Shown here one piece after another: positions 1-52,891 of a stretch of DNA of 64,000 nt (positions within the stretch are counted from its first letter, which is position 1; the number at the start of each line of letters is the position of its first letter). A program made the position numbers and the translations under genes. The notes under the pieces were generated by a model. It worked only from the letters and a program-made list of their open reading frames with translations, was not told the DNA's origin and did no database searches. The DNA is from Macrocybe gigantea. Taxonomy: Eukaryota; Basidiomycota; Agaricomycetes; Agaricales; Callistosporiaceae. The stretch lies in assembly GCA_011319805.1 (NCBI GenBank), contig SJRY01000324.1, positions 1-64,000 on the forward strand. Direction: 5' to 3'.

Positions 1-2
1 GA

Positions 3-923
3 GCTGAAGACAAACATCGCTATAACATGGGCGATTTAGACCGGCTCATTGGCGAAACCAGTCGCCTCGGCATCAGGACCCACGAGCAGCTCGCGGAATA
101 TTACCGCAAATTTTACACTATCACGAAGTATCTAGTTGACAAAGAAGAGATGTCGGCCAAAGAGCAAGCTAGGGCCTACGAACGCGCGTTCCCCACGGAT
201 TTACAAGCCAAAGTCCGAGATCGCCTCGAAGTCAAGTTCCCGGATTACGATCCCTATTTCACCCACTCGCTTGTCGATATACAAGATGCCGCAGCCTACG
301 TTTTTAAACGGGAAGAACAGCCCGGAGCTTCGTCGGTCCGTTACCAGTCCATAGCCCCCGCAACCCGAAGTACTTCAGCCGCTCCAGAACCTCTGTAAAA
401 CAGGAGGACCTTAACACCATCCTTGCGAGTGACTCAAAACATCACAACCGGGATCAGCGACGTTCTCGTCAAGTTTATGCAGGCACAAGCCAATACTGGA
501 GGCTTCCGACCCCGGGCTCCCGGAAACCGTCCCGAGGGCTGTCATTTCTGTGGTAAACCCGATTGTCGCATTAGGGACTGTGAGACGGCCGAGAATTATA
601 TCCGAGAAGGCCTTATCCGCCGTGATTTCAATGGGCGAATCACACTCCCGACACAGGCCGAAATTCCGAGAGCTATTCGAGGTGCCACTATGCAGGAACG
701 TGTCAACGAATATTATAGGCAGTATCCTAACGAGCGACCACGCGGAATTATTACCTCCAATGCAGACACCACCGGCCAAATGCTCCTTTCCGTCGCAACT
801 TATAATCCTACAGAGAATCCCATAGTCCCGAGCGACTCCACCTATGCTTATGCCGTAAATCCCGCGCCAGTACCCAGGTCAACGACCGCCTGTCTGATAT
901 CCAAGAACGTATCCGTCAGCTAA
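3..923 (+). pseudogene. gag: GYP1 gag (capsid and zinc knuckle), partial and interrupted
   Basis: Capsid-type helical Gag sequence is open from base 3, with the first visible ATG at 27. An in-frame TAA at 396-398 breaks it; the same frame then continues to 923. A knuckle at about 540-590 reads CHFCGKPDCRIRDC, which has the C-x2-C-x4-[H]-x4-C spacing but with Cys in the His position. After 870 a different frame carries a coiled-coil-like segment (DRLSDIQERIRQLNLEAQ), so a frameshift lies near there. Gag would package element RNA in cytoplasmic particles. The N-terminus is off the window. Confidence 0.75.
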
Positions 924-929
924 ATCTCG

Positions 930-2211
930 AAGCCCAAGTCCTCGCCAACCGCCGCACCGTTATGGATCATGTCGAAATCACCCGCAGAGGCCGCCTCGCG
1001 CAAACCGCCGAGTCAATCCCGAAACTCCTGTAGTTGCTTCTTCACCTCGAAATCCAGAACCATCCCCAGGTCAGCCACAGAATCCCGAGGCCAGTACTTC
1101 GGCATCAAAAGGTAAAGAAAAGGAAGTATCCCCAGCTCCTTCGTCGCAGACTCTTCCCGAGAATACCCAGGCCGAAACCATCCGTCACGAGGGACCCATC
1201 CATCCCTTCCGCGATGTTCCTGAAGTTCGTTACGCTCCTCCCACCACTCGAAACTTTGCAGCTCCCGCCCCAGTAGCCAAACCAACTAACAAGGACCCCT
1301 CGAAACAACCCGCCTACAAGAACGTTTTCCCCGTCGTCGATAAGAAGCATGCAGATGAAATCTTCGAAACCGTTTTGAAAGGCACCACTCAAATCTCCAA
1401 CGAGGCCCTCCTTTCCCTTTCCCCCGAAATCAGATCGAAGATGCGCGAGCTTGTCACTCCAAAACGGGTAGCTAACGAGACCAACCCCATCGCAGTCATG
1501 TCCCAGGAGTGCAGCATTCCCGAACCTGTGTTTCGAGCTACCATCGAGGAAATCCCCGACGAAGATACCACCCCGTCGAAATCAATCAACCTTAACGAAC
1601 TCCCTTTCGGCATCGCAGATTCCAACGCCGCTACATATGGACAAGCCGCGCCACCGAGGGGCGCTACCATCATCGAAGACCCGATTTCAACCTACATTTC
1701 GAGCATGAGCCGTGACCAGATCGATCCCGAACGCCTCATCGTAGCCAAAGAGAGTCATGCCCTTCGCTCTATCACATGTCTCATCGATCATCAAGACTAT
1801 GTTGAATGTGTCGTTGATCCCGGATCCCAAATTATAGCCATGTCTGATGCAGTATGTCACAAGCTCGGGATCGCCTATGACCCTACCGTCCGCCTCGATA
1901 TGCAGTCAGCCAATGGCGAAATTGACAAATCGCTTGGATTATCCCGAAACATCCCGGTTACTATCAACGAAATCACCCTCTACGCCCAAATCCATGTATT
2001 ACCTAACCCCGCCTATGATATCCTCCTCGGTCGCCCCTTTGACGTCTTAACCGAATCTCTCGTCAAGAACTACCGGAACGAGGATCAAACCATCACAATA
2101 CACGATCCCAACACCAACAGACGTACTACGATCCCGACTCAGCCCCGTGGCAAACCGAAATACATGATGCCAGGAAAGAAGACGGCTGCAGTGGATTTTT
2201 TTCGCAGATAG
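930..2211 (+). pseudogene. GYP1 protease region
   Basis: A frame open from about 1100 to 2211 (first ATG 1375) contains a proline/charge-rich linker followed by a retroviral-type aspartic protease. The active-site Asp codon is 1816-1818, in the context VVDPGSQ. This is D-P-G rather than the usual D-S/T-G, a form I associate with basidiomycete gypsy elements. A downstream LLGRPF segment fits the second half of the fold. The protease would cleave Gag-Pol. It is separated by frame changes from gag upstream and from RT downstream. Confidence 0.7.
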
Positions 2212-2273
2212 AGGACACGTTAGCTGACGGCGATTACGCTTTCGTTGTTTCCTCGGACAAAACTCAAGACAAT

Positions 2274-4400
2274 TTGGACCTTCGCCTCGATTACTATGCC
2301 CAGGTTCCTGCTCCCAATCCCGTCTCTAATTCCGCTCCCGATACGTCCATTTCAAATTATCTTTCATCCTTATATCTTTCGGCCTGTGATATTTCCATTT
2401 CCCCGATTTCAGCTTTACTGTACGAGTCTAGTGGTCGTCCAACACGACCTCAGACGCAATTTCAGAGTGGTTTCAACACCACGAACACTTCCTCTTCCGA
2501 TTTTGTTTATTTATATGATGTGACCAGGTGCGCTCCCGAACTTTCTAGACATACCCCTCCCGAATCGCGCGATACGTTCGCGAAACGTAAATACAAGCCC
2601 GTCGCCCTCAAAGTCCGTTCCGTCGTTGCCCCACTTCCCGATAATGGCAAATTTCGAATCCTCCGCGAAATCCGCGGAGACCCCTTGCCAGTATGCCGAA
2701 ACTATCCCCAAATCCCCCTCCTTTTATCCCGACCGGTCGCTATACCGAGGATCGTCGAAATCTCGTCGACAAGGCCCATCCCGAAGGCTTCCTTTGGCCA
2801 GAAGAACGAAGACTGATGCACCACTTTATGTGCCTCCAGAACGGCGCCTTCGCTTGGACCGACCAAGAGCGCGGTCGATTTCGAGAAGACTTTTTCCCTG
2901 CCGTCGAAATCCCTGTCATTCAGCACAAGCCTTGGATTCACAAGAACATCCCGATACCTCCTGGTATTTATGATGAAATTTGTCAGCTCATTCGTCGAAA
3001 GATCGATGCCGGTGTCTATGAGCCCTCGAATTCCTCCTACCGCTCCCGGTGGTTCACAGTCGTCAAGAAAGATGGCAAGTCGCTTCGCATCGTCCACTCC
3101 CTCGAGCCGCTAAACAAAGTCACCATCCGTCATTCCGGAGTTACCCCGGTCCCTGATCACTTAGCAGAACAATTTGGTGGCCGCCCCTGTGGTGCGATGC
3201 TTGACCTCTATGTTGGCTACGATGAACGACTCCTCGCTGAAAACTCTCGGGATCTCACTACGTTCCAGACCCCTTTTGGCGCTATGCGACTTGTTACGCT
3301 CCCGATGGGCTGGACCAATTCCGTTCCTATATTCCATGATGATGTAACTTTCATCCTACAAGACGAGATACCGCATCTTACCATCCCCTATATCGATGAT
3401 GTCCCCGTGAAAGGCCCAGATTCCGAATATCGACGTCCCGATAACAGTTTCGAAACCATTCCACAGAATCCCGGCATCCGTCGCTTCGTTTGGGAACACT
3501 TTTGCAATCTGAACCGTGTTGTCCAGCGCATGAAGTATTCTGGAGGCACCTTTTCTGGCACAAAGCTCACGCTCTGTAGTCCCGAAATCACAGTTCTTGG
3601 ACACCGTTGTACGCCTAAAGGTCGTCTTCCTGATGAATCCCGAGTTGTCGCAATCAAAACTTGGAAACCGTGCCGAGACCTCTCAGACGTTCGCGCCTTC
3701 CTCGGAACGATTGGTGTCATGCGTATCTTCATTCGAAATTTCGCTCATCGCGCTGACGCCTTAGTCCGCCTTACGCGGAAGAATGTAGACTACGTCTTCG
3801 GTCAGGAGCAACTCGACGCACAGGAAGACCTGAAACAAGCCCTTATCACTTCTCCAGCTCTCCGACCCCTCGACTACAAGTCGGAAGCCCCCATTATCCT
3901 CGCCGTCGATACCTCCTACATCGCAGTCGGTTACTTCCTTTGCCAATGCGACCCGATAACCCTCGAATCCGATATTATAACCGTTTCGGATCCATCACAC
4001 TGAACGATCGCGAACGTCGCTTCTCACAACCGAAACTCGAAATCTATGGCTTATTCCGATCGGTCCGTGCAGTACGCATGTACATCATTGGTGTACGAAA
4101 CCTCGTTGTCGAAGTCGATGCCCGCTACATCAAAGGCATGCTAAACAATCCCGATATAGTCCCCTCTGCCAGTATCAATCGATGGATCCTGACGATCCTG
4201 ACATTCCACTTCACACTTGTTCATGTTCCTGGCTCTAGTCACGGTCCTGATGGTCTTTCCCGCCGACCAGGCGATCCCGAGCCTGACCAAGACGAAGATT
4301 TCGACGATTGGATCGACAGAGTCTATGGCTTCATCCATTTTGTTAACACCCCTCGATATCGTCCCGAAACACGTCGAAGTCACCTCATTTCGATATACCT
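2274..4400 (+). pseudogene. pol: GYP1 reverse transcriptase and RNase H, frameshifted
   Basis: The linker up to about 2700 lies in one frame and the RT (2693-4003) in another. RT motifs include VKKDGKSLRIVHSLEPLNK (domain 2), TPFGAMRLVTLPMGWTNS (domain 4) and the catalytic YIDD at 3389-3400. RNase H starts at LAVDTSYIAVGYF near 3900 and then changes frame at about 3975, continuing in the frame covering 3940-4596. Together these would copy element RNA into DNA. The frameshifts mean this copy could not make an intact Pol. Confidence 0.85.
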
Positions 4401-4415
4401 AGGACAGGACATTTC

Positions 4416-4443
4416 AAGTGGGGAGGACAGTCAAGCTGTCCTC
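4416..4443 (+). promoter_or_regulatory. Candidate central polypurine tract with perfect palindrome
   Basis: The 15-mer AAGTGGGGAGGACAG at 4416-4430 is identical to the tract preceding the 3' LTR at 8438-8452. It overlaps a perfect 9-bp inverted repeat (GGAGGACAG, 5-nt loop, CTGTCCTCC; 4422-4444). It sits between RNase H and integrase, where central plus-strand primers lie in some retroelements. The role is inferred. Confidence 0.5.
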
Positions 4444-4592
4444 CACCGAAACTCCTCCTCTCCCGAGTCCGAAGACCGCTGGAAGCCAACCCTGACCTTC
4501 GACAGCTCAGCTCCATCCCTGACTATGTATTTGTTCCTCGTTCGAAATCAGCCATTGCCGACGATCAGCGTCTCGACCTCGTACAGGACTAT

Positions 4593-5977
4593 TTGACCAC
4601 CTTGCGTCGTCCACCCAGTCTCACAGATTCTGCTTTCGAGGCCTTTGTTCGGTATTGCTTCCACTTCTTCGTTGCTGCTGACAAGTTATGGCGAAAGGAC
4701 GACCAAGGTAGTCACAAACTCGTGATCCCTCGAAATCGGCGTATGAACATCATCGCCCAAGCCCATGATGACCTCGGTCACAAGGGCATCTACCCGACAC
4801 GTACCTTGGTTTGTGAGCGCTTTTGGTGGCCTCACATGCTGGCCGATATCTCTTGGTTTTGCAGGACTTGTCACATCTGTCAGCAACGACAGTCCCGACA
4901 GGTTCTCATCCCGCCAGTCGTGGCAGTACCCGCGCCCTTTTCGGAAAATTCTATGCCGACACCATGAAGATGCCAAAGTCCAATGGCTACCAGTACATCG
5001 TGCAAGGTCGTTGCTCCCTCACGCATTATCCTGAATTTCGAGCCCTCCGGAAAGAAAACGGTCCCGCAATCGGTGAATGGCTGTTCCAGGATGTATTATG
5101 TCGATGGGGTGGTGTTCGCGAAATTGTCACGGATAACGGTGGTCCCTTCGTGGCAGGTCTTGACTACCTCGGGAAACGCTACGGCATCTACCACATCCGA
5201 ATCTCGACATACAATTCCCGCGCCAACGGGATAGCTGAGCGGCCGCATTATGATGTTCGTCAATCACTGATAAAGGCAGCAGACGGTGTCGAAAGCAAGT
5301 GGTCACAATACGTCCATTCGGTCTTCTATGCCGAAAGAGTCACCGCCCGCCGTCGAATGGGTTGTTCACCTTATTTCGCGGTAACTGGCACCCATCCCAT
5401 TCTCCCGTTCGATATCATGGAAGCAACCTACCTGCAGCCTCCTCCCGAATCCTTACTATCATCCACAGATCTTATCGCTCGTCGAGCTGTCGCCTTACAA
5501 AAACGAACTGAACAGCTACAAGCCCTTCATGCCGACGTATACGATACCCGTAGAAAGGCTGCCGAACGTTTTGAAAAGAAGCACTATCACACCATTCGTG
5601 ATTTCAATTTCAAACGCGGTGCCCTAGTCCTCATCCGAAACACTCGTGTGGAGAAGAGTCTCGATCGCAAAATGCGACTTCGGTATCTCGGACCACTTAT
5701 TGTTGTCTCCCGGAATTTCGGAGGCGCTTACATCGTTGCCGAACTCGATGGCACAGTCCTGGATCGCCCCGTAGCAGCATTTCGAGTCATCCCGTACTTC
5801 GCTCGCCGTGAAATCACCATTCCCGAAACACTTCTCGATATCGACGCTGCCGGCTTCATGAAATGCAAGCCTCAAACGATCAAGGCGACGAAATCCCGGA
5901 CGATTTCGACGTACCTACCGACAGCGATCCCAAAGTTGATTCCGACGTTGAAATACTTTCGGCACCACTTAGTTTAG
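4593..5977 (+). pseudogene. GYP1 integrase, frameshifted
   Basis: An HHCC zinc-binding segment (HDDLGHKGIY... CRTCHICQQ, about 4768-4895) is in one frame. The catalytic core is in the next (4823-5977): first Asp in YADTMKMP, second in VTDNGGP, and Glu in NGIAERPH, giving a D,D-35-E layout. A GPY/F-like C-terminal module (GALVLIRNTRVEKSLDRK... YLGPLIVVSR) follows. I see no chromodomain. The frame change near 4900 between zinc domain and core breaks the protein. Integrase would insert the cDNA into the genome. Confidence 0.85.
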
Positions 5978-6143
5978 CTCACTCTCATTAAGTCCAACTC
6001 TTTTCGCGTTCATTGACTATCCATTTTCTTTGTTATTTGACACTCTCACTTACCATTATCTATTTTCACGATCCTTTTAAAGTCCAGTTTGACGTCCATC
6101 AGAAACAAGAAAATAACGGATTCAAAAACAATTATTACAAATT

Positions 6144-6969
6144 TTATAGTTCGGACGAGATTCCACCGAACTCATCTTCCTCTTCATCCGTCTCGCCCTC
6201 ACTCTCATCTGACGACTCGTTTTCTTTCTGGTCATAGCCTTCTTCACCGCTCTCCTCCGACGTCTCTTCTCCAGACTCCGATCCCGACGACGCTCCCGAG
6301 CTTTCCGACGAATCGACCCCAGTATCAATCGATGGCGGTATCGAAACCGCGAGCTCCCGAACCGTTGGCATTTCGACCGATGTCCCGACGCCTCTCGAAA
6401 CCATCGACTCCCGACGCTGCGCAAGTAGCCAGCGGACTTCGGTTTCGACCGCCCTCGGAACGTTCTGTGCCATGAATTGATGGACTTGAGTTAAGAGCCG
6501 ACGCTGTTGCAACTCTGTTGCCCGACGAACGTGTTGAAGGACGTTGCCGCCAAGCTCCAGGAATTCCTCCCGACGATCGGCACGTTCGCGCATAGTACGA
6601 GCGGCCGTTTCAAGAGTATCCGCCAGATCGTACATGTGTCGGGAATCCTCGTTCATACTCCGGAAGGAGTTCCCTAGAAATTCGAAGGCCTTGATATCGT
6701 ACGGGAGTACGAAATTATAAATGTCCTCGTAATCCCGATTATCGAACCGGAGGGCGTCTCGCAACTGGACGTCGCTATCCCGAACACGATCGGCAGCAAG
6801 GCGCGTCGCGGTCTCGGCAATGTCTTCGAAACCATCAGGCACGTTTGGGGCTTCGACAGCCTCCCTCCAGAAATCCCGATCTTCGAAATCGTCCGTGGCA
6901 GGCAGTGTTCCCGTCTCGAACCATTGACGTGGCCCGGGAAGTCCTGCTCACGAAAATAATGAAGCAGTC

Positions 6970-7006
<37 letters not shown>

Positions 7007-8188
7007 ATAAAATAAAATATAGACTTACGATCGCGAAAGCCCGGACCGTAGCGCGAGTCCATTGGTGGCACCGGCATCGGAGGAGGCGTAGGCGCAATAA
7101 TTGGTTCCGGACGATACGGGATGTCCTCCGAAGGCGCATGCATTTCGATATCCTCGAGATGGGACGGCGGCTCCTGCGAAGTCTCCGAAATCGATTCCTC
7201 GGCCTCGGTATCGTAAGCTCGCATCTTGCCCTTCCCCTTTGGATCGCGACGCGGTCTTGGCTCGGCATCCTCGTCCCTAGGCTTTGAATGAACGGTCTTT
7301 CGAGACCGTGACCTTGTTCGCATGACCCCGTCGCCAGAGTCAGTTTTAATCCGTGAAGTAGTTTTAGCTGATTTCGCAGCACGCGGCCTTTTGAACGAGC
7401 AGCCGAGCTGTTTTTCGACGCAGCGTCGACAAGGGCCCGGCTCGGAATCGATCCTCTCGCAGACTTCGAGGTCGGCCTTCTTACACCGTTCGCACTAAAC
7501 CGCGGTAGGACTCAGAAACAGTCCGGCGGCAAAGAGACACAATCACTCACCCGCTCATCACCCGTAACCTCCTCGAAATCGAGTTTCAGGCGGCGCTCCC
7601 GATAGCGCTGCTGCGCGAGCTTGTTCTTCTCCCGGCGAGCCGCTTTCTTTTCATCCTCGTCGGCACGCCGTCGTTTCGCTCCCGAATCCGCACCACCAGC
7701 TGCAGAATCTGACGCCCCACGCTTTCGAGAAGGTCCCGCAGTTGGGACACGCGTAGTCAGCATCGCGTTCGGGGCACCAGGGGACCATCCGCGAGCACCA
7801 TTCCGCCAAGCGAAGAACCTTCGAAATCAGCAATCCAGTGTAGTGGAGACGAAATAGCGTGACTCACCAGATCCCGGGCTCTCGTACAGGCCCCCAACCT
7901 CATCCCGACGATCCTCGTCCAGGCGGCCAACCCACTCGTTGTATCGCGAAACCCAATCCTGAAAGACGTCTTCGGGAACGTCTTGACCCTCCTTTGCCCA
8001 CTCATCCTAATGTCAATACGGATAAAGATATCGCCTCACTCACTCCCCGTTGGACTTACAAAACGTTTCGAGACCGCAGCACTAAAGGCCTTGATGGCCT
8101 CAACGCTCGCGTTCGGTCCGGGGACGGCCTCGAAGAGCCCTTCAAGCTCGGCAATAGAAGTTTCGGTCTTGACGATTTCGGCGGACAT
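6144..8188 (-). CDS. Antisense spliced gene in GYP1: Zn2Cys6-like cluster with bZIP-like basic segment
   Basis: Five exons can be laid out on the minus strand with GT-AG introns: 8188-8060, 8006-7868, 7818-7551, 7494-7029, 6943-6144; introns are 53, 49, 56 and 85 nt. The start ATG (8188) lies 107 nt below a TATA box. Exon 3 has a basic stretch with NKLAQQRYR (N-x7-R, as in bZIP basic regions). Exon 4 opens with C-x2-C-x7-C-x9-C-x2-C-x6-C (codons 7494 to about 7397), a Zn2Cys6-type spacing, then basic, RS-like and proline-rich sequence. Exon 5 is a long helical region ending in a Ser/Glu-rich acidic tail. Product about 600 residues, suggesting a nuclear DNA-binding regulator (inference). Joins 1-2, 3-4 and 4-5 keep frame; join 2-3 is one nucleotide out, so either this copy has an indel or the intron differs. 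It fills the space between integrase and 3' LTR, opposite to the element's own genes. Confidence 0.7.
6970..7004. repeat. 35-nt poly(A) run (poly(T) on minus strand)
   Basis: An uninterrupted run of 35 A on + lies inside intron 4 of the antisense gene, about 25 nt from its acceptor, where it reads as a polypyrimidine tract. Its length may be a sequencing or slippage estimate. Confidence 0.9.
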
Positions 8189-8286
8189 GTCGTGTACAAG
8201 ACGGTTTCGAGAAGCGGTATGCGATTTGGCGAGAGCTGAGATTTCGACGAGTCGACAAGAAAGGTGTTCGTACCCATCCCACCCTC

Positions 8287-8295
8287 CCTTTTATA
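8287..8295 (-). promoter_or_regulatory. TATA box of the antisense gene
   Basis: TATAAAAGG on the minus strand, 107 nt upstream of the ATG at 8188. This predicts a transcription start near 8264 and a leader of about 75 nt. It gives the antisense gene a promoter distinct from the LTR. Confidence 0.55.
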
Positions 8296-8437
8296 CAGGC
8301 GCAATCTGTAAACGACGGGAACGCCCGAAATGCCTCGCGACTTCGTCATGGCAGATCAACTCGCGAAACCCACGTTACCCGAATAACGACCAAGGTCGCC
8401 GTTCAATGGGAATGCCGACTGAGGACAGTCGACCGCT

Positions 8438-8452
8438 AAGTGGGGAGGACAG
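8438..8452 (+). promoter_or_regulatory. GYP1 3' polypurine tract
   Basis: AAGTGGGGAGGACAG sits directly before the presumed LTR start TGATGAGC. It would prime plus-strand DNA synthesis. A partial echo (GAGGACAGTC) is at 8421-8430. Confidence 0.6.
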
Positions 8453-8453
8453 A

Positions 8454-9578
8454 TGATGAGCGCTCCGCACCGCTGACCGCCGATAAGTCCTAATTTGGTA
8501 ATCCCGCCCCCGCATTCGAAATCATACCACTACTCGGCCCCCTCAGCATGATACCGCAGTCCAGTCGCTGACTTCTCGTTCGAGTACTCGGGATGTCGAC
8601 AACTCCGTGAGGCTTCCATTCCAGGTCCCTGACACTTCGCCAAACGCATCGCACACGTACATTCCGGACATTCTGCGCTTCCTATACCGCCCAATCCGGT
8701 CAGGCAGTCTTATTCCTATATGCCTCCCCCGATTTCCAGATCCCGATATGGCAAGACTACTACCATTTTCGATATCGCACCGCCTCACGCCTTCCCGCGT
8801 TCCCGACACTGCCTCGCCGCAGTACATTCGAAACAAGGGATTTCGAGCGCGCTACCATTTCATCCACTCTCATTTCGAAATTCATGACTCATATTTCACT
8901 GATACATTCTACGTTCCTTAGATTATTTTCACGTTCCATTCTACGACGCATGGCACCGGTTTCGGGATGTTCTTTTACCTACTGTTTCACCTTTTGTTCA
9001 GATTTCGAACGGACTTACATCTCCCCGGCGTTTCAGCCACTAAACGACCCTTTCGAAATCATACGATACGTTCTCTCATTCGGTTTCGACTCCGCCGGTT
9101 ATTCCGATACTCGAAATCTTCTCATCTATAAAAACCCATGTACTTGGCATTTGTAAAACATAGAAAAAGTTACCGTCTCAGTCCTTCAGCAGTCTCGCAG
9201 TCTACGACTCGTGTGGAGTCCTTGTGTTATCCGATCTCAAAGTGTCGCGCTCGCGTGGAGCCACCGTACTCAGTCTCGAAATCAGTGTCTCTGGCTTCGC
9301 GTGGAAGTCATTATCATCGAAACCCTTCCGAAACCCTCACTGAAGCCCTCGATATCGCGCGGGAATTCAGCTAAGTCTAACAGCCTTGTTTCGAAAACCC
9401 CGAAACCCGCTCGAAACCATCCATATTCACTTCGTTCCATTCCCCCCTTTCACGCTACAGTCCCTCGGGTTACTCTGTGACTTGAACAGCTCGTAGTTTA
9501 TACAGCCTCGGATAGGGACTGATGCTTCCTTCATTCCACCTTGTTGGTTTGTAGGTTAGTGCTACCCGATAGTTATCA
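8454..9578 (+). repeat. GYP1 3' LTR (approximate)
   Basis: About 1.1 kb without coding sequence, starting TGATGAGC after the polypurine tract and ending near TTATCA (imperfect TGAT/ATCA ends). It has a TATA box, TATAAAAA, at 9127-9134. The partner LTR is outside the window, so the exact end is inferred. Confidence 0.55.
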
Positions 9579-11916: not shown

Positions 11917-12236
11917 TGTTACAGACGCCGCCCAAAGGACTATTCATTTTCTTATCTTATCTTTCCCACATCCCTTATCTCCCCCATCATGCTGCGCAGC
12001 GCGCAGCCATCGAGTCATCTCACTTCCCTAGTCATCCTGAGTCATCTCCTTCCAGTCTTACTCATCCGCAGTCCACAGCATTGCGCAGCCCATGGTCCAT
12101 GCTCGAGTACTGTAGTGTATATAAGGACTCCCAGATGTACCAGTAACGCTAGGCTTAATATTCCTTTTGCCATCATCTCAAGACCACTCTCGCACTTAGT
12201 CTGCCCGAGTCCTTCTGAGATTCGTCTAGCCTAACA
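11917..12236 (+). repeat. GYP4a 5' LTR
   Basis: TGTTACAGACG...CTAACA, 320 bp. TATA box TATATAA at 12118-12124. The predicted RNA start is AGGCTTAATAT at 12151-12161, 33 nt downstream. Confidence 0.95.
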
Positions 12237-12238
12237 AG

Positions 12239-12249
12239 ATATTAAGCCT
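12239..12249 (+). promoter_or_regulatory. GYP4a self-priming primer-binding site
   Basis: ATATTAAGCCT begins 2 nt after the 5' LTR and is the exact reverse complement of 12151-12161 (AGGCTTAATAT), the predicted first 11 nt of the element RNA. No match to a tRNA 3' end (TGG...) is visible here. The same pair exists in GYP4b. Confidence 0.75.
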
Positions 12250-12302
12250 CGTCGAGACTCGCTCAGACTCACACACACACCACGTCACGCTTTATCAAAG
12301 AC

Positions 12303-12897
12303 TTGATCAACATTCGACGACAAGCGGTCGCCGACCCAGCGAGCACTAGCACGAGCGACGAGAGCACTTGGCTCAGAGAAGTAGACCAGACATTGCAGTC
12401 CACGCCATTCGCAGAGACAGTCCACGCCATCCGCAGAGACACTAGCAATCCAAACAAACGAAAGAGAGAGCGCACGCCTACACCAAGTAGCGACGACGAA
12501 GAACAGGCATTTCTGAGAGAGTTTGCCTTCACCACCACAGACGAGCCCGCTGAGATCCTCAGCGAAGGAGCAGCACAACTCATTGCAGAACTTTCCTAGA
12601 AGGAGAATACGGGATAAGCCCAGAAGAGCTGTGGTCAGACCAGAATCTTCTTGCCGAAGAAAGGACGAACCCATCCGCAAGAAAACGAGAGAAGAACGAA
12701 CACAAGCCCGAGATTTTAGGCGACAACAGATCGAGAACTATAATCGCCGAACACAGGAGGAAGACATACTGATACAGAGAGGGCACACGCACAGAGCATA
12801 CGACAGAACCAACGAGAACGACACCAGAGTCAAGGACACACAGGAACGAAACCACCGAATCCCTTCAGAGGACCAATCCGCCGAAGCACTGCATAAG
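12303..12897 (+). pseudogene. GYP4a ORF0: charged leader protein before gag
   Basis: An open frame with no recognised domain: Ser/Thr-rich start, KRKRER basic patch, acidic middle and Arg/Gln-rich tail. The GYP4b copy (31639-32235) is continuous over 198 codons. Here small indels near 12596 and 12660 break it. It ends in TAA and the gag frame follows. No in-frame ATG is present at its 5' end in either copy, so how it would be started is unclear. Confidence 0.5.
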
Positions 12898-12914
12898 GAG
12901 AGAATCGCACCACC

Positions 12915-14055
12915 GTGGCGAAAGTAAGCAACAGCGACTGGGACGAATACTATCGGTGGAGGGAGCGAAAAGGACTACCAAAGACAACCGGACCAACCGC
13001 CGCAGAGTGGGCCGATTTTGAACAAGCTTGTAGAATCGCAGGAGTCGACCTAGACTACTGGAAAGAACAGAGAGAGGAGCGAAGACAGAAACAGCTCCAA
13101 GAACAGCAAGCCCAAGTACAAGCACAGCAGACCCAAGAACAACAGATCCAGGAACAGGAAGACCAAGACCAAGAGAACGACGAAGAAAACCCCCAAAGGA
13201 TGACGACAGAATACAAGGGAATCATCGCCGACCCGAAATCCTTTACAGGAGATCGAACGTCCTTCGATATTTGGTGGAGAAAGATGAAACTCTACATAAC
13301 CGCACATGGGACCTCACGGATACACAGAAGATTGGAGCGGTCCTGTCTAGAATGACCGACGGACCCGGAGCCCACTGGGCATCAAAGAAGATCGACACCA
13401 CTACCAACCAAAGCACATGGGCCGACTTCATAACCGAGATAGAGACACGATTCAGCAACGTCATGTCGCCATCACAAGCAGGAAGCAAACTATTCAACAT
13501 CAGACAGGGAAACCGACCCATCGACGAATTTCTGGATGAATTCGTAGACCTCGCAGGGAAAGCAGGAATGACAGGAACAGCCCCTCGTTTCCTACTCGAG
13601 AAGAGCTTAAACCGAAGGACAGCAGAAGCCGTACACTCAATCTCCACACTTCCAACAGATGGAGATGAATATATCAAGACAGTTCGAGCAATTGGACGAA
13701 ACATCGATGAACACAGAAATGTGATGAGAGGAGAATTCACAAGCAATCAGCGCAAGGCCGGAAATCCAAGCCGAGGAGCAGGACAGGCCATGGAAGTCGA
13801 CAAAGTACGAAGCAACAACTGCTTCAACTGCAATAAACCAGGACACATTCACGAAACTGCCCGGAACCACGAAAAGGAGCAGCAAATGTCACATGTTTCA
13901 ACTGTGGCTTAAAGGGACACTATGCACGAAACTGCAAGAAGAAGAAGAAAGGAAAATCCCGGGTCAGAGAAGTGAAAGAAGAAGAAGGAGAGGACGAAGA
14001 AGACAAGGATGAAGAAAGCTCTGACAAAGAGGGTTTTGCCGAAGGGTCCGACTAG
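12915..14055 (+). pseudogene. gag: GYP4a gag
   Basis: It begins with VAKVSNSDWDEYYRW at a GTG in good context, then a Gln-rich stretch (about 13090-13165), then the capsid domain. The first in-frame ATG is 13201. A 1-nt loss near 13309 relative to GYP4b shifts the frame. The first CCHC knuckle (CFNCNKPGH) is damaged by a 1-nt loss near 13855 and the second ([14 protein letters not shown]) follows. A Lys/Glu-rich tail ends at TAG 14053-14055. Confidence 0.8.
14031..14037 (+). promoter_or_regulatory. GYP4a gag-pol -1 frameshift heptamer
   Basis: G GGT TTT in the gag frame fits X-XXY-YYZ, 16 nt before the gag stop. The pol frame is the -1 frame and is open across this point. The same site is at 33372-33378 in GYP4b. 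Confidence 0.55.
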
Positions 14056-17000
14056 GAGGTGCTAAATCGCGACCCATACAACTGAAACAGACTCGCTTCG
14101 ATACCGGATGTAGATCATCCCATACTCTGAAATACACCATTCCTGCCAAGCGATCTGAAGCACCAAGAAAAACCATCCAAGGGGACAAACCACCAAAGAG
14201 GAAAGAGCTCGCAGTACCAGCGAGGATACGAACCGAAAAGGAATCACAACGATAACACCAGAAGTTGATAGCGGAGCGGATAGGACCTGCATCAACACCG
14301 CGATAGTAGCAAAAACGGACTGAAGACACGACGAATCAAGAAATTCCCATCATAAATGCAGACGGATCACCCAATCGTCAGAAAACAGCAGACCGAGTAG
14401 CGGAGGTCCACATCGACATTAAAGGACACAAGGAGCATATGGAAGCCATCGTACTCGATATCGGAAAAACCGACATGCTACTAGGACATGACTGGCTTGT
14501 CTACCACAACCCAACAATCAAATGGAGGACAGGAGAGATTGTCTTCGACAGATGCCCCAAAACGTGCAAAATAAACCACCAGACGATCAAGATACAGAAG
14601 GTGGCTGAACCAGCGAAAACCACAGCCAGCGACAAGACAGGAACCCAGATACCCCCATATCTGATCAGATTCAAACACCTCTTCAAGGAGAAGAACTTTG
14701 ATCGCTTACCAGACCACAAAGAATGGGACCATGAAATAAACTTAACGAAGGATGCACCCAAAACGATACCGAGCAAGGTCTACCCGATGACACAGAAAGA
14801 GCTAGAGGAACTAGATGCCTTCGTCGAAGAAGGATTACGAACAGGAAAAATACGCCCATCGAAATCACCTTACGCAGCACCCTGCTTCTTTCGCAATAAG
14901 AAGGATGGAAGCAAGCGACTCATCCAAGACTACCGGGAAATAAACAAATATATGGTCAAGGACAAGTTTCCACTACCACGCATCAGCGAGCTCCTCGACG
15001 TACTACAAGGAGCAAAGTACTTTAGCAAGATCGATATTATCTGGGGGTACAATAACGTGCGCATCCGGAAAGGGGACGAATGGAAGGCAGCCTTCCTAAC
15101 AGCAAGAGGACTCTTCGAACCGACAGTCATGTATTTTGGGCAGTGCAACGCACCAGGCACTTTTAGCCGAATGATGGCAGCCTCTTCCAAGACCAAATAC
15201 GAAGAAGAGTGTGCATAATCTATATGGATGACATTATAATCATCGGACGAACACGAGAGGAACTCCAAAAGAACACCATAGAAGTCATGGAAATACTGAA
15301 CAAGAACGACCTATTCATCAAAGGACCGAAATGCGTCTGGGAATCATCGAAAGTCCCAGTACTAGGATACATCGTAGGAGAAGGGAAGGTAGAAATGGAA
15401 CCAGAAAAGATCACAGCCGTACAATCCTGGCCAACCCCAAAGACGAAGAAAGAACTACAAAAGTTCTTGGGATTCACGAACTTTTACCGACGATTCATCA
15501 AGGGATATGCAAAGGTCGCTAAACCCCTGACGGAGTTGACTGGAAACAAAACATTCCAGTGGACAGACAAGCAACAAGGCGCTTTCAAAGAACTGATCCA
15601 ACATATAACCTCAGCACCCATTCTAGCACTACCACAGACAGAAGGAAAATTCCGAGTCGAAACGGACGCCTCAGGATATGCCATTGGAGCGGTACTATCA
15701 CAACAGCAGAAAGGACTATAGCATCCGATTGCATTCATTTCGAGATGCATGACCCCAGCAGAGCAAAACTACGAAATCTACGACAAGGAACTTCTTGCGA
15801 TAATGGTCGCACTAAAGACATGGAGACAATACCTCCTCGAAGCTCGAGAGAAGTTCGAAATATTGACGGATCACAAGAACCTATCATACTTCCGAAAGCC
15901 GCAGCGACTCAATTCGAGACAGATTGGCTGGTACCTGAAATTACAGGAATACGACTACGAACTACGACACGTACCAGGAAAGGCGAATGGAAAAGCGGAT
16001 GTCCTGTCACGAATGGCAGGATATGAAGAAAACCTAGCAGAGAAGGACGACATACAAATGATCAAAGAAGCAGCATTCATTCGACATCTGGAAGAGAATA
16101 ATGAACGAGACTTCGAATTTATGATGTTCAGGACGAACACCCACAGAAAGAAGAAGCAGAAAATAACGAAACAATACAAACAAGAGGAATCACGATGATC
16201 GAATCCTCAAGGATAGAACAAATTCGACAATGCGCACGAAGGGAAACGATCGTAACAACAGGACTGAAGGAAAAACCACACTGGTTCACAGAAGACGACC
16301 ACATCGTATATGTAGGAGGGAAAATCTATGTTCCTCCAGACAACAAACTGAAGGAAAACATCATGTTTGAACACCACGACACACCCATCGGAGGACACCC
16401 AGGGCAATACCGCATGCACGAGCTCATAAGCCGCACCTATTGGTGGCCATCAATGCTGACAGACATCAAGAAGTATGTCAATGGATGCGAAACATGTCAG
16501 CGAAACAAAATCATCCGACAAAAGAAACACGCACCCCTGCACCCGCACGAAGTCCCACAACAACCATGGGAAGATATCGGAGTAGATCTCATAGGACCGC
16601 TACCCAGCTCGAACGGCTTTAACGCCATCGCCGCAGTCACAGACCGCCTGACCAAGATGATCCACCTAGTTCCCACAAAGACCGAACTCACAGCAGAGGG
16701 TCTCGCACGACTATACCGAGACAACGTGTGGCGGCTTCATGGAATTCCACGAAAGATCATCAGTGATCGAGGACCCCAGTTCGCAGCACGATTCATGACA
16801 GCACTTCTAAAATTACTCGGAACAAAGCAAAACCTATCAACGGCCTATCACCCACAGACAGATGGACAGGCGGAGCGATCCCACCAAGAAACGGAAGCCT
16901 TCCTCAGAAGCTTCACAAACAACCTACAGGACGATTGGGCAGAATGGATAGCAATTGCAGAGTACCAATACAATGACAAAGCACACCAGGGAACGAAGGA

Positions 17001-17675
17001 GACACCATTCTACCTCAACTATGGAATGCACCCCTGGAAGGGAGAGCCGCAGATGACAGAAGGGAATAACCCCGCAGCAAAAGACTTCGTCAAAAGAATG
17101 AGCCAAATACGAAAGGAAGCAAATGCCGCGCTGCAATATGCACAAACATGAGCCAAAGACAATTACGACGTGAGACGAAAACCTGCCCGGGAATACAAGA
17201 AAGGAGATAGAGTATGGCTAGAAGCCACCAATATCACAGTCAACGACCATCAAAGAAGTTATCGGCACTCCGATACGGACCGTTCAAGGTGGTTGAAAAG
17301 AAAGGAGCCTCGGCATATCGCCTGGAACTCCCAGCATCATGGCAGCTGATACACCCCGTGTTCAATGAAACACTGCTCACGCCTTACAAAGGACCCCGTT
17401 TCAAGATACAAGAGCGACCATCACCACCACCCCCTGAAATCATAAATGATGAAGAAGAGTACGAGATAGAAGAGATCCTAAAAAGGAAGAAACAAGGGAA
17501 GGGGACATTATTCCTGGTCAAATGGAAAGGATACGGACACGAAGAGAACACATGGATCAAAGAGAAGGAGCTGGGGAATGCGCAGCAAGCTCTAGACCAC
17601 TTCCTAAAGAAGACTGCGAACCAGGATAAAAGGATCACGACAAGAGGGAAGAAGACCAAAAATCGCACTTCATGA
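14056..17675 (+). pseudogene. pol: GYP4a pol: protease, RT, RNase H, integrase, chromodomain
   Basis: Protease active site VDSGADRTC is near 14250. RT has KYFSKIDIIWGYNNVRI and YMDD at 15221-15232. RNase H has VETDASGYAIGAVLS, then EILTDHKNL. The integrase has a zinc domain (HHDTPIGGH... CETCQRNK, about 16375-16510), first Asp in GVDLIGPL, second in IISDRGPQ and Glu in QTDGQAERSH. The tail has a GPY/F module and a chromodomain (EYEIEEIL... LFLVKWKGYG... ENTW, about 17455-17560), which in chromoviruses reads histone marks to direct integration. Damage: three 1-nt losses around 14230-14350, a 1-nt loss near 15185, TAG at about 15719 (TGG in GYP4b), TGA at 17149-17151 (CGA in GYP4b), and a loss near 17245. 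Confidence 0.9.
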
Positions 17676-18070
17676 CCACCAACGCCCCCATCAGCATCGA
17701 CAGCAGCAAGGGCAGCCGCGCACCTACCCCCAACCGCCCAAGCGACCTCGAGAATCTGGCAAGGATTCTCAATGCTAGCGACTACATGGACCCCCTCGCC
17801 ATCACACTCGGCGCATATATGTGCTATGTTATGACCGTCCGCACGCACCTCTGGACCGGGAGAACCCCTGATGGGACCGGCCCCACTGCAGCTGAACGTA
17901 TCGCGCTTCGCGAAGCAATGGAAATGCTTTGCACAGAAAACCGGCGGCTTAAACTCCTCGCCACCACACTCCACCACATTCGCGCCTATAATGAAGAGCT
18001 CATTCATACATGGGCCCCGCGTGCCGCGACCGCCTGGGAGACCAATACTGGGTGGGGACAGCTGGACTAA
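17672..18070 (+). CDS. GYP4a ORF3, accessory protein of unknown function
   Basis: A 132-codon ORF whose ATG overlaps the pol stop (ATGA at 17672-17675), a layout that suits termination-reinitiation. It is intact, unlike pol. The GYP4b copy differs at three residues (K/E, R/H, D/N) and is also intact. The N-terminal 20 residues are Ser/Pro-rich; the rest looks helical (two predicted helices around LENLARILNASDYMDP and ERIALREAMEMLCTENRR). I see no signal peptide or clear membrane span and do not recognise a domain. It ends 37 nt before the LTR. Confidence 0.7.
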   Translation: MTTNAPISIDSSKGSRAPTPNRPSDLENLARILNASDYMDPLAITLGAYMCYVMTVRTHLWTGRTPDGTGPTAAERIALREAMEMLCTENRRLKLLATTLHHIRAYNEELIHTWAPRAATAWETNTGWGQLD

Positions 18071-31638: not shown

Positions 31639-32235
31639 TTGATCAACATTCGACGACAAGCGGTCGCCGACCCAGCGAGCACTAGCACGAACGACGAGAG
31701 CACTTGGCTCAGAGAAATAGACCAGACATTGCAGTCCACGCCATTCGCAGAGACAGTCCACGCCACCCGCAGAGACACTAGCAATCCAAACAAACGAAAG
31801 AGAGAGCACACGCCTACACCAAGTAGCGACGACGAAGAACAGGCATTTCTGAGAGAGTTTGCCTTCACCACCACAGACGAGCCCGCTGAGATCCTCAGCG
31901 AAGGAGCAGCACAACTCATTGCAGAACTCTTCCTAGAAGGAGAATACGGGATAAGCCCAGAAGAGCTGTGGTCAGACCAGAATCTTCTTGCCGAAGAAGA
32001 GGACGAACCCATCCGCAAGAAAACAAGAGAAGAACGAACACAAGCCCGAGATTTTAGGCGACAACAGATCGAGAACTATAATCGCCGAACACAGGAGGAA
32101 GACATACTGATACAGAGAGGGCACGACGCACAGAGCATACGACAGAACCAACGAGAACGACACCAGAGTCAAGGACACACAGGAACGAAACCGCCGAATC
32201 CCTTCAGAGGACCAATCCGCCGAAGCACTGCATAA
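31639..32235 (+). CDS. GYP4b ORF0: charged leader protein
   Basis: An uninterrupted 198-codon frame starting at a TTG in my reading, with no in-frame ATG. Composition: Ser/Thr-rich start, basic KRKRE patch, acidic middle, Arg/Gln-rich end. It ends in TAA, and the Gag frame continues in the same phase 18 nt later (GTGGCGAAAG at 32254). It may be an N-terminal extension of Gag reached by readthrough, or a leader ORF. No known domain recognised. Confidence 0.45.
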   Translation: MINIRRQAVADPASTSTNDESTWLREIDQTLQSTPFAETVHATRRDTSNPNKRKREHTPTPSSDDEEQAFLREFAFTTTDEPAEILSEGAAQLIAELFLEGEYGISPEELWSDQNLLAEEEDEPIRKKTREERTQARDFRRQQIENYNRRTQEEDILIQRGHDAQSIRQNQRERHQSQGHTGTKPPNPFRGPIRRSTA

Positions 32236-32253
32236 GGAGAGAATCGCACCACC

Positions 32254-33396
32254 GTGGCGAAAGTAAGCAACAGCAACTGGGATGAATACTATCGGTGGAG
32301 GGAGTGAAAAGGATTACCAAAGACAACCGGACCGACCGCCGCAGAGTGGGCCGATTTTGAACAAGCTTGTAGAATCACAGGAGTCGACCTAGACTACTGG
32401 AAAGAACAGAGAGAGGAGCGAAGACAGAAACAGCTCCAAGAACAGCAAGCCCAAGTACAAGCACAGCAGACCCAAGAACAACAGATCCAGGAACAGGAAG
32501 ACCAAGACCAAGAGAACGACGAAGAAAACCCCCAAAGGATGACGACAGAATACAAGGGAATCATCGCCGACCCGAAATCCTTTACAGGAGATCGAACGTC
32601 CTTCGATATTTGGTGGAGAAAGATGAAACTCTACATAACCGCACATGGAGACCTCACGGATACACAGAAGATTGGAGCGGTCCTGTCTAGAATGACCGAC
32701 GGACCCGGAGCCCACTGGGCATCAAAGAAGATCGACACCACTACCAACCAAAGCACATGGGCCGACTTCATAACCGAGATAGAGACACGATTCAGCAACG
32801 TCATGTCGCCATCACAAGCAGGAAGCAAACTATTCAACATCAGACAGGGAAACCGACCCATCGACGAATTTCTGGATGAATTCGTAGACCTCGCAGGGAA
32901 AGCAGGAATGACAGGAACAACCCCTCGTTTCCTACTCAAGAAGAGCTTAAACCGAAGGACAGCAGAAGCCGTACACTCAATCTCCACACTTCCAACAGAT
33001 GGAGATGAATATATCAAGACAGTTTGAGTGATTGGACGAAACATCGATGAACACAGAAATGTGATGAGAGGAGAATTCACAAGCAATCAGTGCAAAACTG
33101 GAAATCCAAGCCGAGGAGCAGGACAGGCCATGGAAGTCGACAAAGTATGAAGCAACAACTGCTTCAACTGCAATAAACCAGGACACATCTCACGAAACTG
33201 CCCGGAACCACGAAAAGGAGCAGCAAATGTCACATGTTTCAACTGTGGCTTAAAGGGACACTATGCACGAAACTGCAAGAAGAAGAAGAAAGGAAAATCC
33301 CGAGTCAGAGAAGTGAAAGAAGAAGAAGGAGAGGACGAAGAAGACAAGGATGAAGAAAGCTCTGACAAAGAGGGTTTTGCCGAAGGGTCCGACTAG
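32254..33396 (+). pseudogene. gag: GYP4b gag
   Basis: Gln-rich linker, then capsid (first ATG 32539: FDIWWRKMKLYITAHGDL..., IRQGNRPIDEFLDEFVDLAG), then two CCHC knuckles ([14 protein letters not shown] and [14 protein letters not shown]) and a Lys/Glu tail ending in TAG (33394-33396). Stops: TGA at about 32306, 33025 and 33147; where GYP4a can be compared the last two are CGA there. It would package GYP4 RNA. Confidence 0.8.
33372..33378 (+). promoter_or_regulatory. GYP4b gag-pol -1 frameshift heptamer
   Basis: G GGT TTT in the gag frame, 15 nt before the TAG. The -1 frame is open upstream and downstream into protease, so a -1 shift would make Gag-Pol. Confidence 0.6.
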
Positions 33397-35561
33397 GAGG
33401 TGCTAAATCGCGACCCATACAACTGAAACAGACTCGCTTCGATACCGGATGTAGATCATCCCATACTCTGAAATACACCATTCCTGCCAAGCGATCTGAA
33501 GCACCAAGAAAAACCATCCAAGGGGACAAACCACCAAAGAGGAAAGAGCTCGCAGTACCAGCAAGGATACGAACCCGAAAAGGAATCACAATGATAACAC
33601 CAGAAGTTGATAGCGGAGCGGATAGGACCTGCATCAACACCGCGATAGTAGCAAAAACGGGACTGAAGACACGATGAATCAAGAAAATTCCCATCATAAA
33701 TGCAGACGGATCACCCAATCGTCAGAAAACAGCAGACCGAGTAGCGGAGGTCCACATCGACATTAAAGGACACAAGGAGCATATGGAAGCCATCGTACTC
33801 GATATCGGAAAAACCGACATGCTACTAGGACATGACTGGCTTGTCTACCACAACCCAACAATCAAATGGAGGACAGGAGAGATTGTCTTCGACAGATGCC
33901 CCAAAACGTGCAAAATAAACCACCAGACGATCAAGATACAGAAGGTGGCTGAACCAGCAAAAACCACAGCCAGCGACAAGACAGGAACCCAGATACCCCC
34001 ATATCTGATCAGATTCAAACACCTCTTCAAGGAGAAGAACTTTGATCGCTTACCAGACCACAAAGAATGGGACCATGAAATAAACTTAACGAAGGATGCA
34101 CCCAAAACGATACCGAGCAAGGTCTACCCGATGACGCAGAAAGAGCTAGAGGAACTAGATGCCTTCGTCGAAGAAGGATTACGAACAGGAAAAATACGCC
34201 CATCGAAATCACCTTACACAGCACCCTGCTTCTTTCGCAATAAGAAGGATGGAAGCAAGCGACTCATCCAAGACTACCGGGAAATAAACAAATATACGGT
34301 CAAGGACAAGTTTCCACTACCACGCATCAGCGAGCTCCTCGACGTACTACAAGGAGCAAAGTACTTTAGCAAGATCGATATTATCTGGGGGTACAATAAT
34401 GTGCGCATCCGGAAAGGGGACGAATGGAAGGCAGCCTTCCTAACAGCAAGAGGACTCTTCGAACCGACAGTCATGTATTTTGGGCAGTGCAACGCACCAG
34501 GCACTTTTAGCCGAATGATGGCAAGCCTCTTCCAAGACCAAATACGAAGAAGAGTGTGCATAATCTATATGGACGACATTATAATCATCGGACGAACACG
34601 AGAGGAACTCCAAAAGAACACCATAGAAGTCATGGAAATACTGAACAAGAACAACCTATTCATCAAAGAACCGAAATGCGTCTGGGAATCATCGAAAGTC
34701 CCAGTACTAGGATACATCGTAGGAGAAGGGAAGGTAGAAATGGAACCAGAAAAGATCACAGCCGTACAATCCTGGCCAACCCCAAAAACGAAGAAAGAAC
34801 TACAAAAGTTCTTGGGATTCACGAACTTTTACCGACGATTCATCAAGGGATATGCAAAGGTCGCCAAACCCCTGACGGAGTTGACTGGAAACAAAGCATT
34901 CCAGTGGACAGACAAGCAACAGGACGCTTTCAAAGAGCTGATCCGACATATAACCTCAGCACCCATTCTAGCACTACCACAAACAGAAGGAAAATTCCGA
35001 GTCGAAACGGATGCCTCAGGATATGCCATTGGAGCGGTACTATCACAATAACAGAAAGGACTATGGCATCCGATCGCATTCATTTCGAGATGCATGACCC
35101 CAGCGGAACAAAACTACGAAATCTACGACAAGGAACTTCTTGCGATAATGGTCGCACTAAAGACATGGAGACAATACCTCCTCGAAGCTCGAGAGAAGTT
35201 CGAAATATTGACGGATCACAAGAACCTATCATACTTCCGGAAGCCGCAGCGACTCAATTCGAGACAGATTGGCTGGTACCTGAAATTACAGGAATACGAC
35301 TACGAACTACGACACGTACCAGGAAAGGCGAATGGAAAAGCGGATGTCCTGTCACGAATGGCAGGATATGAAGAAAACCTAGCAGAGAAGGACGACATAC
35401 AAATGATCAAAGAAGCAGCATTCATTCGACATCTGGAAGAGAATAATGAACGAGACTTCGAATTTATGATGTTCAAGGACGAACACCCACAGAAAGAAGA
35501 AGCAGAAAATAACGAAACAATACAAACAAGAGGAATCATGATGATCGAATCCTCAAGGATA
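33396..35561 (+). pseudogene. pol: GYP4b pol, first part: protease, RT, RNase H, start of integrase
   Basis: In the -1 frame relative to gag: protease VDSGADRTC (about 33608), TGA near 33676 (CGA in GYP4a), then one open frame through RT (YMDD 34566-34577) to a TAA near 35049, then RNase H (EILTDHKNLSYFRKPQRLN). Integrase begins and is cut at 35561 by TIR1-1 (TA target in AAGGATA). It resumes at 38676. Confidence 0.9.
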
Positions 35562-35741
35562 TGGTGTGGGACACCTAACCACCACCACTTTTGTGCAGTG
35601 GCCAAATTGACTGGTCATCAAACCTCGCCATCATAGATGCCAAGATATCAAGCAAAATTAGTTACTCATTGATAGTCTGATAGGCGTCCTATGCATATTT
35701 ATAGTAATATCCAATTTTTTCTTCATTTTTTTTCACCAGAA

Positions 35742-40893: not shown

Positions 40894-41961
40894 GGTCCCA
40901 AAATCAACCCTAGATCAATGAACCAATTGCGCATGGGGCTCACCTGAAAGGTGAACACCCCCGCCTTCGTTTGATTCGCTACGCCCCACTCTAGTTTGAC
41001 AGGTACCGTGCATCGACAAGACGGGCAACCTAGCAGGAGATTGAAGAGGTTAAACCCTGACCCTCAGCTATCTTCCTGCCCTTCTATGCCAGTAGAGGAT
41101 CGTCCTTCCTCACTGTTAATGCCCATCCCCTCAGAAGAGGAAACTGAACGATTTCCACTGCATATAGCTGGGTTGTACCCCAGTTTTGGACAGATTCGTC
41201 ATCCTAGGAACACTCTGACACCTTTTTCATCTCCTTTGCGAGCTCAGAAGTCTACCAAAAGATGTCATTCGACCTCAGATCCTTCATCGCCTACAGAACC
41301 CATATGCATCTTACCCATCATGTTGACCCAAGTCAATGGCATACAATATGCTACCTTTATGCAAGGCGCGCTGAATAAACTCCCCATCCTCTCTTCTGGT
41401 GTTATCGATCCTCTAGTCCTACGGGAATTTCACAGGGGACTCTCACATTATTTCAACAAGAAAGAAATCACGGAGGATGCGGAGAAGATTCGAAAGACAA
41501 TGATGTCCTGCCGGGATGGCCGCCAAGCGGATTGGTTCGATGGAAATCAGGACGCCCTGCTCGCATTATCATTCAACGATTTCTTTGCAAAGTTCAAGGC
41601 TACCTTCCTCGAACCGGATTGGGAGGACAAAGTTTACGTCAAGCTCATGGACAAGAAAATGTGGAAGAACGAGCGTTTTCTAGCTTGGGCGATGGAATGT
41701 CAGAAGCTGAACAGTCTGTTGAAAGGGACCGCATCTCATCTCTCAGATGAGGCGTTGATGAAGATTCTCAACGCTAAAATGGTCCCCGACCTCAGAATTG
41801 CGACAAAGAAGATCGACAGGACAGGCTCCTTCTTCACGTGGCTACACGTGGTCCATGATGAGGATGAAAAGCTGGCACGGGAGAAGGTCCGTTTCAATGA
41901 ACATAGCAAGGGAGGCTTGGGAACTTCATCTGCCCAGGCGGAGAACAACCCAAGGAAATGA
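40894..41961 (+). pseudogene. gag: GYP5 gag, capsid part (copy 1)
   Basis: After a short leader, an open frame to 41961 with a proline-rich N-terminus and a Gag capsid domain (LREFHRGLSHYFNKKEI, ALLALSFNDFFAKFKATFL). The ATG choice is uncertain (41086 or 41323 are in frame). It stops at a TGA (41959-41961), but the same frame continues for another 290 codons, so this is a single premature stop. Confidence 0.75.
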
Positions 41962-52854: not shown

Positions 52855-52891
52855 GGTTTTTCGTGAGGACGCGAATCTAAAGAGAGGGTGA

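Follow-up and report, generated by a model that had tools for sequence, protein, structure and literature searches.

The Ty3/gypsy LTR retrotransposon recognised from its sequence at the start of the 64,000-nucleotide stretch of Macrocybe gigantea DNA analysed here (the window), which we call GYP1, carries a second gene on its antisense strand. Predicted in the window copy, between the integrase and the 3' LTR, and confirmed by our analysis, this gene has five exons and 600 codons (minus strand, 8188–6144). Comparison of the copies within the genome establishes the gene, its place in the element and the purifying selection on its spliced frame. We think it fairly probable that GYP1 owns it as an antisense accessory gene, and that the product is an element-encoded DNA-binding protein, probably one that regulates the element itself.

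The protease, reverse transcriptase (RT), RNase H and integrase regions of GYP1 lie on the plus strand in gypsy order. The aspartic protease region (1375–2211) matched Pfam gag-asp_proteas with 33.6 bits (cut-off 28.2), the RNase H region (3940–4596) matched RT_RNaseH with 26.8 bits (cut-off 24.8), and the integrase region (4593–5977), consisting of an H2C2 part followed by the core and C-terminus, matched Integrase_H2C2 at E 2.3e-19; its core had no Pfam match and was identified by eye. The segment with the RT and the start of RNase H (2693–4003) gave sub-threshold matches to RVT_1 and RT_RNaseH_2 and had 1360 protein relatives at E≤1e-5, with identities of 58–77% among the best 120 listed. 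The named organisms among these 120 were Meripilus lineatus, Sphagnurus paluster, Grifola frondosa and Mycena venus (66–70% identity), all of them Agaricomycetes. In the window copy, pol is broken over several frames and the integrase is split across two of them.

A polypurine tract (AAGTGGGGAGGACAGA, 8438–8453, plus strand) stands immediately 5' of the 3' LTR (8454–9578, plus strand, about 1125 bp, TGATGAGCG...GTTATCA), which has TG...CA ends. GYP1 extends leftward past the contig start, and the window copy has its 5' LTR beyond that point, so the LTR was delimited from another copy, L051 (contig C190), whose 5' LTR (L051:1595–2722) matches the 3' LTR of the window copy. The two LTRs of that copy are 99.5% identical over 1129 aligned bases, and a CCGG target-site duplication surrounds it, this being the one copy examined for the feature. 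The C190 copy is apparently nested in an inverted and older LTR of the same family (L051:1108–2722; L034 from 9564), one part of which flanks the 5' LTR on the left while the following part flanks the 3' LTR on the right.

Some further features of the window concern GYP1 and its neighbours. The word TCCCGA occurs 42 times on the GYP1 sense strand (1–9578), against 7 occurrences of its reverse complement TCGGGA; the means over 200 simulations were 7.6 and 2.6, and the maxima 22 and 7. Its occurrences are distributed along gag-pol and the antisense gene and fall in several codon phases, with only two in the LTR and none in 9600–30000; it could be a word for RNA packaging or protein binding. On the plus strand a very strong A-over-T skew (0.25–0.5) marks 12000–18000, 32000–36000, 39000–40000 and 51000–53000, blocks that include gypsy pol-like ORFs at 16195–17151 and 33783–35051. 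Two gypsy gag-pol-like ORF sets of equal lengths, at 40996–45518 and 53319–57841, lie 12,323 bases apart; their translations look identical by eye, and we take them for a recent duplicate or tandem copy.

On the minus strand, the antisense gene is preceded by a TATA box-like sequence (TATAAAAGGG, 8286–8295). Exon 1 (8060–8188) holds the ATG and 43 codons and is followed by exon 2 (7868–8006), exon 3 (7551–7818), in which a bZIP-like basic segment (RREKNKLAQQRYRERR) is encoded, and exon 4 (7029–7494), which encodes a six-cysteine cluster (codons 180–211) and then a basic and proline-rich region. Exon 5 (6144–6943) encodes a long predicted helix and then an acidic tail, and ends with the stop TAA at 6146–6144. 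The four introns, all GT–AG, measure 53 nt (8007–8059), 49 nt (7819–7867), 56 nt (7495–7550) and 85 nt (6944–7028); retention of any of the first three would bring in an in-frame stop, and the length of the fourth is not a multiple of three. Intron 4 contains a T tract, seen on the plus strand as a run of 34 A at 6971–7004, the length of which is probably variable, since the alignments of other copies break there.

The TATA box, the ATG, the five exons and the four short introns described in the earlier note could thus all be located. Its statement that three of the four joins keep the frame is correct for the window copy, but the apparently frame-breaking join reflects a one-base slip within exon 3, the sole frame slip in the spliced frame of this copy, and 22 of the 27 copies aligned at that place do not have it. 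The slip is common to the window copy, L002, L007 and L011, and L010 has a two-base gap there. At the TATA-like site, TATAAAAGG is present in 17 of 30 copies and CATAAAAGG in 7 (L003, L005–L009 and L012), with a gap in L018 and five copies lacking sequence at that position.

The gene accompanies the element throughout this genome. GYP1-type integrase loci, defined by a best piece at least 58% identical and grouped by hand, numbered at least 38 after scoring 107 of 422 candidates, and the antisense gene, whole or in part, was present at 37 of these 38. An exon 5 match lies directly downstream on the opposite strand at 36 of them; the C136 locus has kept exons 1–3, and the exception, C164, is a 43-residue integrase fragment with no antisense match. 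The conservation in place that the earlier note had proposed to check is therefore borne out among the copies of the genome itself. At 13 distant gypsy integrase loci (23–27% identity), no exon 5 match was found at E≤0.001, a test whose reach does not include unrelated antisense genes.

Six of the 38 loci (C192 twice, C322:69866, C323 and C324 twice) make up an older group; their scores are nearly identical, and they probably go back to a single old insertion spread by duplication. In the member that was read, L052, the integrase is 76% identical to that of GYP1 in DNA and about 70% in protein, and an exon 5 only 32% identical in protein occupies the same place; judged by these two identities, the antisense gene seems to evolve much faster than pol. 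Exons 1–3 were unrecognisable in L052 by tblastn (exons 1–2 and 3; best E 0.24). The stretch that holds this divergent exon 5, L052:6345–6821 (C322:70844–71320), is outside the window and belongs to a rearranged GYP1-like element; beside it, on the same strand, is a coding sequence that we take to resemble KOW-repeat Spt5-like proteins.

A search of the 41.2-Mb assembly of the organism itself with a 461-base probe yielded 34 matches, 30 of which were excised as copies L001–L030 (81–100% identity to the probe). None of the 30 has an intact antisense frame: in 26 it is broken by one or more frame-shifting indels and in the remaining four (L016, L020, L021 and L022) by stops, so that no copy seen need make the antisense protein today, though part of the indels could be assembly errors. 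L017 carries an insertion in the region of the antisense gene. Stops were also found in the pol pieces of 6 of the 18 copies tested. When indels are neutralized, the frame is free of stops in 14 of the 30 copies, including the partial L029; exons 1–4 show no length change against the common frame in eight, and in L003, L004 and L006 the frame is open through all four joins and past codon 420. The GT–AG dinucleotides are kept except in the decayed copies L024, L025, L027, L028 and L030, where one or two per copy are gone. CpG-type transitions make up 428 of 740 coding variants (a raw count), which indicates that the old copies have decayed largely through CpG loss.

As copies decay roughly neutrally after insertion and shared variants come mostly from the source lineages, selection was assessed by contrasting private variants with those present in at least two copies; CpG transitions were left out and codons close to indels were masked. 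Of the 307 singletons counted over all 30 copies, 97 came from the misaligned copy L024 alone. The 24-copy set omits L018, L024, L027, L028, L029 and L030, and a 25-copy set keeps L028. In the 24 copies, shared non-CpG changes comprised 9 nonsynonymous and 26 synonymous ones (N9:S26; 4/3/28 at the three codon positions), private ones N38:S19 and one stop (15/18/25). The excess at third positions among the shared changes (28 of 35, binomial p 2e-8) and the contrast between shared and private changes (Fisher OR 0.17, p 2e-4) have p-values that serve only as guides, because the copies are non-independent and the sharing of variants may also stem from gene conversion. The 25 copies with L028 agree (shared N10:S29 and one stop, 31 of 40 at third positions; private N57:S34 and two stops; Fisher p 1.2e-4). 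With an expected N:S of 3.1–3.7, omega is about 0.1 for shared and 0.5–0.65 for private changes.

Several comparisons bear on this signal. It is lost in the two shifted frames, where shared changes amount to N31:S4 with one stop and N28:S6 with two stops; in the same set of 25 copies, which includes L024, both parts of the gene contribute to it (exons 1–4 N4:S15, exon 5 N5:S12). Introns and UTRs vary at a rate like that of third codon positions (18 shared non-CpG changes in 339 sites and 27 in 600, respectively, against 7 in 1200 at positions 1 and 2; 24 copies, with slightly different masking). As a positive control, pol in 18 copies gave shared N3:S19 and private N29:S31. CpG-class variants in the 24 copies do not show the same shift (N98:S54 with six stops for variants in two or three copies, N39:S36 with two stops for those in at least four, and N77:S56 with one stop for private ones), a pattern that we read as recurrent decay in which many copies were hit at the same CpG sites. 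Frame, introns and wrong-frame controls all point the same way, and together they give strong evidence that purifying selection acted on the spliced antisense protein in the source lineages, and the dN/dS below 1 that the earlier note had suggested looking for across copies is found in the shared changes of this genome.

The predicted protein looks like a DNA-binding regulator. The cysteine cluster, C180-x2-C183-x7-C191-x9-C201-x2-C204-x6-C211, the basic N-x7-R segment and the acidic C-terminal tail reported in the earlier note are all present. The six cysteines of the cluster are the only ones in the 449-residue product of L004 and all are kept in 28 of 30 copies, decayed ones included (L018 is gapped there and L029 has no such region); this retention is only mild support, as TGC and TGT codons are largely spared by CpG decay. 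When the 64 kb are translated in all six frames, the six-cysteine pattern turns up a single time, and none of 20,000 shuffles of the L004 product reproduced it; the N-x7-R pattern has a single site and appeared in 11 of 20,000 shuffles.

The likeness to the two known domain families stops short of membership. In fungal Zn2Cys6 domains (PF00172), the spacing is C-x2-C-x6-C-x5-16-C-x2-C-x6-8-C. The antisense protein shares with them six cysteines in two CxxC-led halves, but its first loop is x7 instead of x6; canonical spacing was found nowhere in the window, and the loose pattern once. Similarly, the basic region N-x7-R of fungal bZIP proteins (PF00170) is represented by NKLAQQRYR at codons 155–163, but a bZIP zipper has leucine at every seventh residue from R+10, and here these heptads are missing, with E and C at residues 173 and 180. 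A Pfam scan of the L004 product and of the window exon 5 returned neither Zn_clus nor bZIP, nor a TRP28 or SMC domain, and NCBIfam gave no match for either. In hand-cut pieces, Zn_clus reached 16.0 bits (cut-off 21, E 0.013) and bZIP_1 17.3 bits (cut-off 27.6, E 0.0051, on a 38-residue piece and for its basic half only), E-values that flatter the match because the pieces were picked by eye; a 108-residue piece with both motifs matched Zn_clus alone, at 11.0 bits. Given the scores below cut-off, the over-long cysteine loop and the missing zipper, we file the protein as neither Zn2Cys6 nor bZIP, so that the earlier Zn2Cys6-like and bZIP-like labels find weak support, the six cysteines and the basic segment stand, and the profile search for Zn2Cys6 proposed in the note came out negative at the cut-off. 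For exon 5, a single-sequence AlphaFold model suggests, with low confidence (pLDDT 58), one long helix at 83–183.

Searches of protein databases with the L004 product and with exon 5 revealed no relative outside this genome, with a method that depends on 5-residue words in common and would not see relatives that evolve fast. Among viral contigs, exon 5 gave five pattern matches, none of them a relative, and the RT gave no pattern match; a search of PDB sequences with the L004 product returned five matches at chance level (E 0.6–5). A weak match of the cysteine region at C197 (L053; E 0.585) was dropped, as the sequence lacks the six-cysteine cluster.

The earlier note suggested that such a gene was not described as a standard retrotransposon component, but three systems already in print provide precedents. 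Plants have an established class of antisense additional ORFs (aORF-3R) located between pol and the 3' LTR, with gene23 of Grande, RIRE2, and Retand with TRP28 as examples (PMC7264820, PMC11963269); Grande has its own upstream antisense promoter, and a nuclear or DNA-binding function is suspected for the class (PMC7264820, PMC11963269). The GYP1 gene likewise codes on the strand opposite to pol, in the interval before the 3' LTR, and is carried by most copies of its family (37 of 38 loci), and so shares place, orientation and prevalence with the plant class. It differs in its fungal host, its four introns, and a six-cysteine cluster and basic segment in place of TRP28 or SMC domains; PMC11963269 contains neither the word 'intron' nor the word 'zinc'.

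Closer in host, a Boty-like gypsy element of Botrytis carries an additional antisense gene, brtn (Zhao et al. 2011, as cited in PMC7264820, PMC8365987 and PMC4227169). By description, Boty and GYP1 are both fungal gypsy elements with an antisense gene, but a CHROMO domain is part of the Boty gag-pol as described (PMC4227169), whereas a Pfam scan found none in the GYP1 integrase ORF. The third precedent, HBZ of HTLV-1, is a spliced antisense bZIP gene that lowers sense expression and whose transcription starts in the 3' LTR (PMC10186651). HBZ and the APH genes of HTLV resemble the GYP1 gene as spliced antisense genes near the 3' LTR of a retroelement, and by analogy we regard HBZ as the best functional counterpart. 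The GYP1 gene departs from HBZ in a TATA-like box of its own outside the LTR, its five exons, the missing zipper and the cysteine cluster. The antisense extra gene of LTR elements is known, and what is new is an intron-rich version with a cysteine cluster; no multi-intron antisense gene with such a cluster in a basidiomycete gypsy element appeared in the titles and abstract beginnings of the literature searched, which is weak evidence of absence, as most subscription papers lie outside it.

From these features we infer how the gene would act. RNA polymerase II would start at the TATA box, which lies between the 3' LTR and the antisense ATG; the host would splice the transcript, and the protein of about 600 residues would enter the nucleus, where the basic segment and six-cysteine cluster would contact DNA, the long helix may serve in dimerisation and the acidic tail may contact other proteins. 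In the manner of HTLV HBZ, the most likely use would be control of GYP1's own transcription or copy output. We propose that the introns persist because they are antisense within the genomic RNA and hence go unrecognised there. The earlier suggestion of an element-borne antisense regulator acting on the LTR or on host genes is upheld for a selected, element-borne antisense protein gene; the regulatory action is the conjectural part. In the LTR (1125 bp), TCGAAA occurs 9 times against 0.4 expected and TTCGAA 6 times against 0.6 expected; these could be binding sites, but are only a lead, since the same words are common in gag-pol.

The reading that competes best, which we hold to be possible and distinctly less probable, accepts a real and selected protein and makes it a nuclear accessory that serves integration, the export of genomic RNA or targeting to chromatin, with the cysteine cluster as a structural zinc site. 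The domain scores below cut-off and the long predicted helix in exon 5 would suit it, and such roles have been proposed for plant antisense ORFs (PMC7264820), but a basic segment with the bZIP signature beside a cysteine cluster is more like DNA-binding proteins. Alternatively, the antisense transcript might act as RNA, pairing with the genomic RNA and feeding RNA silencing, with the protein secondary. Over their full length the antisense exons complement the sense genomic RNA, and silencing through dsRNA from such transcripts is discussed in the same source (PMC7264820); pairing, however, leaves unexplained the third-position enrichment, the omega of about 0.1 in the exact spliced frame and the faster introns, and we consider this account improbable.

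We rate as very unlikely that a host regulator gene was captured once and has been carried passively since. The structure with short introns is host-like and the host genome has Zn_clus genes at 24 places, but searches of this genome gave no convincing homologue (five weak matches elsewhere, E 0.03–4.2, among them the one at C197 without the cluster), selection went on while the element multiplied, and the divergent group has the gene in the same place. The prevalence at integrase loci together with purifying selection therefore disfavours the single capture that the earlier note had named as a refuting case; an ancient capture preceding the GYP1 radiation is possible. A chance open frame on the antisense strand can hardly be entertained: CpG-rich DNA does yield long open frames, and other antisense frames of at least 80 aa exist in gag-pol, but it is refuted by the third-position pattern of the shared changes, which is confined to this frame, and the shuffles and intron rates are also against it.

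Extra genes in antisense have turned up repeatedly in the LTR elements of plants and in retroviruses, and the case of GYP1 adds a clear selection signal. It also offers an exon–intron structure that can be tested, a plausible DNA-binding domain and a fungal group with easy genetics and RNA-seq, and it warns annotators that fungal genes of such shape may be owned by transposons. A bolder extension of the regulatory reading, speculative and in our view rather unlikely, is that gypsy elements of this fungal lineage possess a self-encoded circuit in which a composite basic and six-cysteine protein would read repeated TTCGAA-type LTR sites and set the balance of sense and antisense transcription, as an independent fungal counterpart of HBZ that apparently evolves far faster than pol. 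If the GYP1 protein does regulate the LTR, antisense DNA-binding proteins would have arisen repeatedly as a means of retroelement self-regulation.
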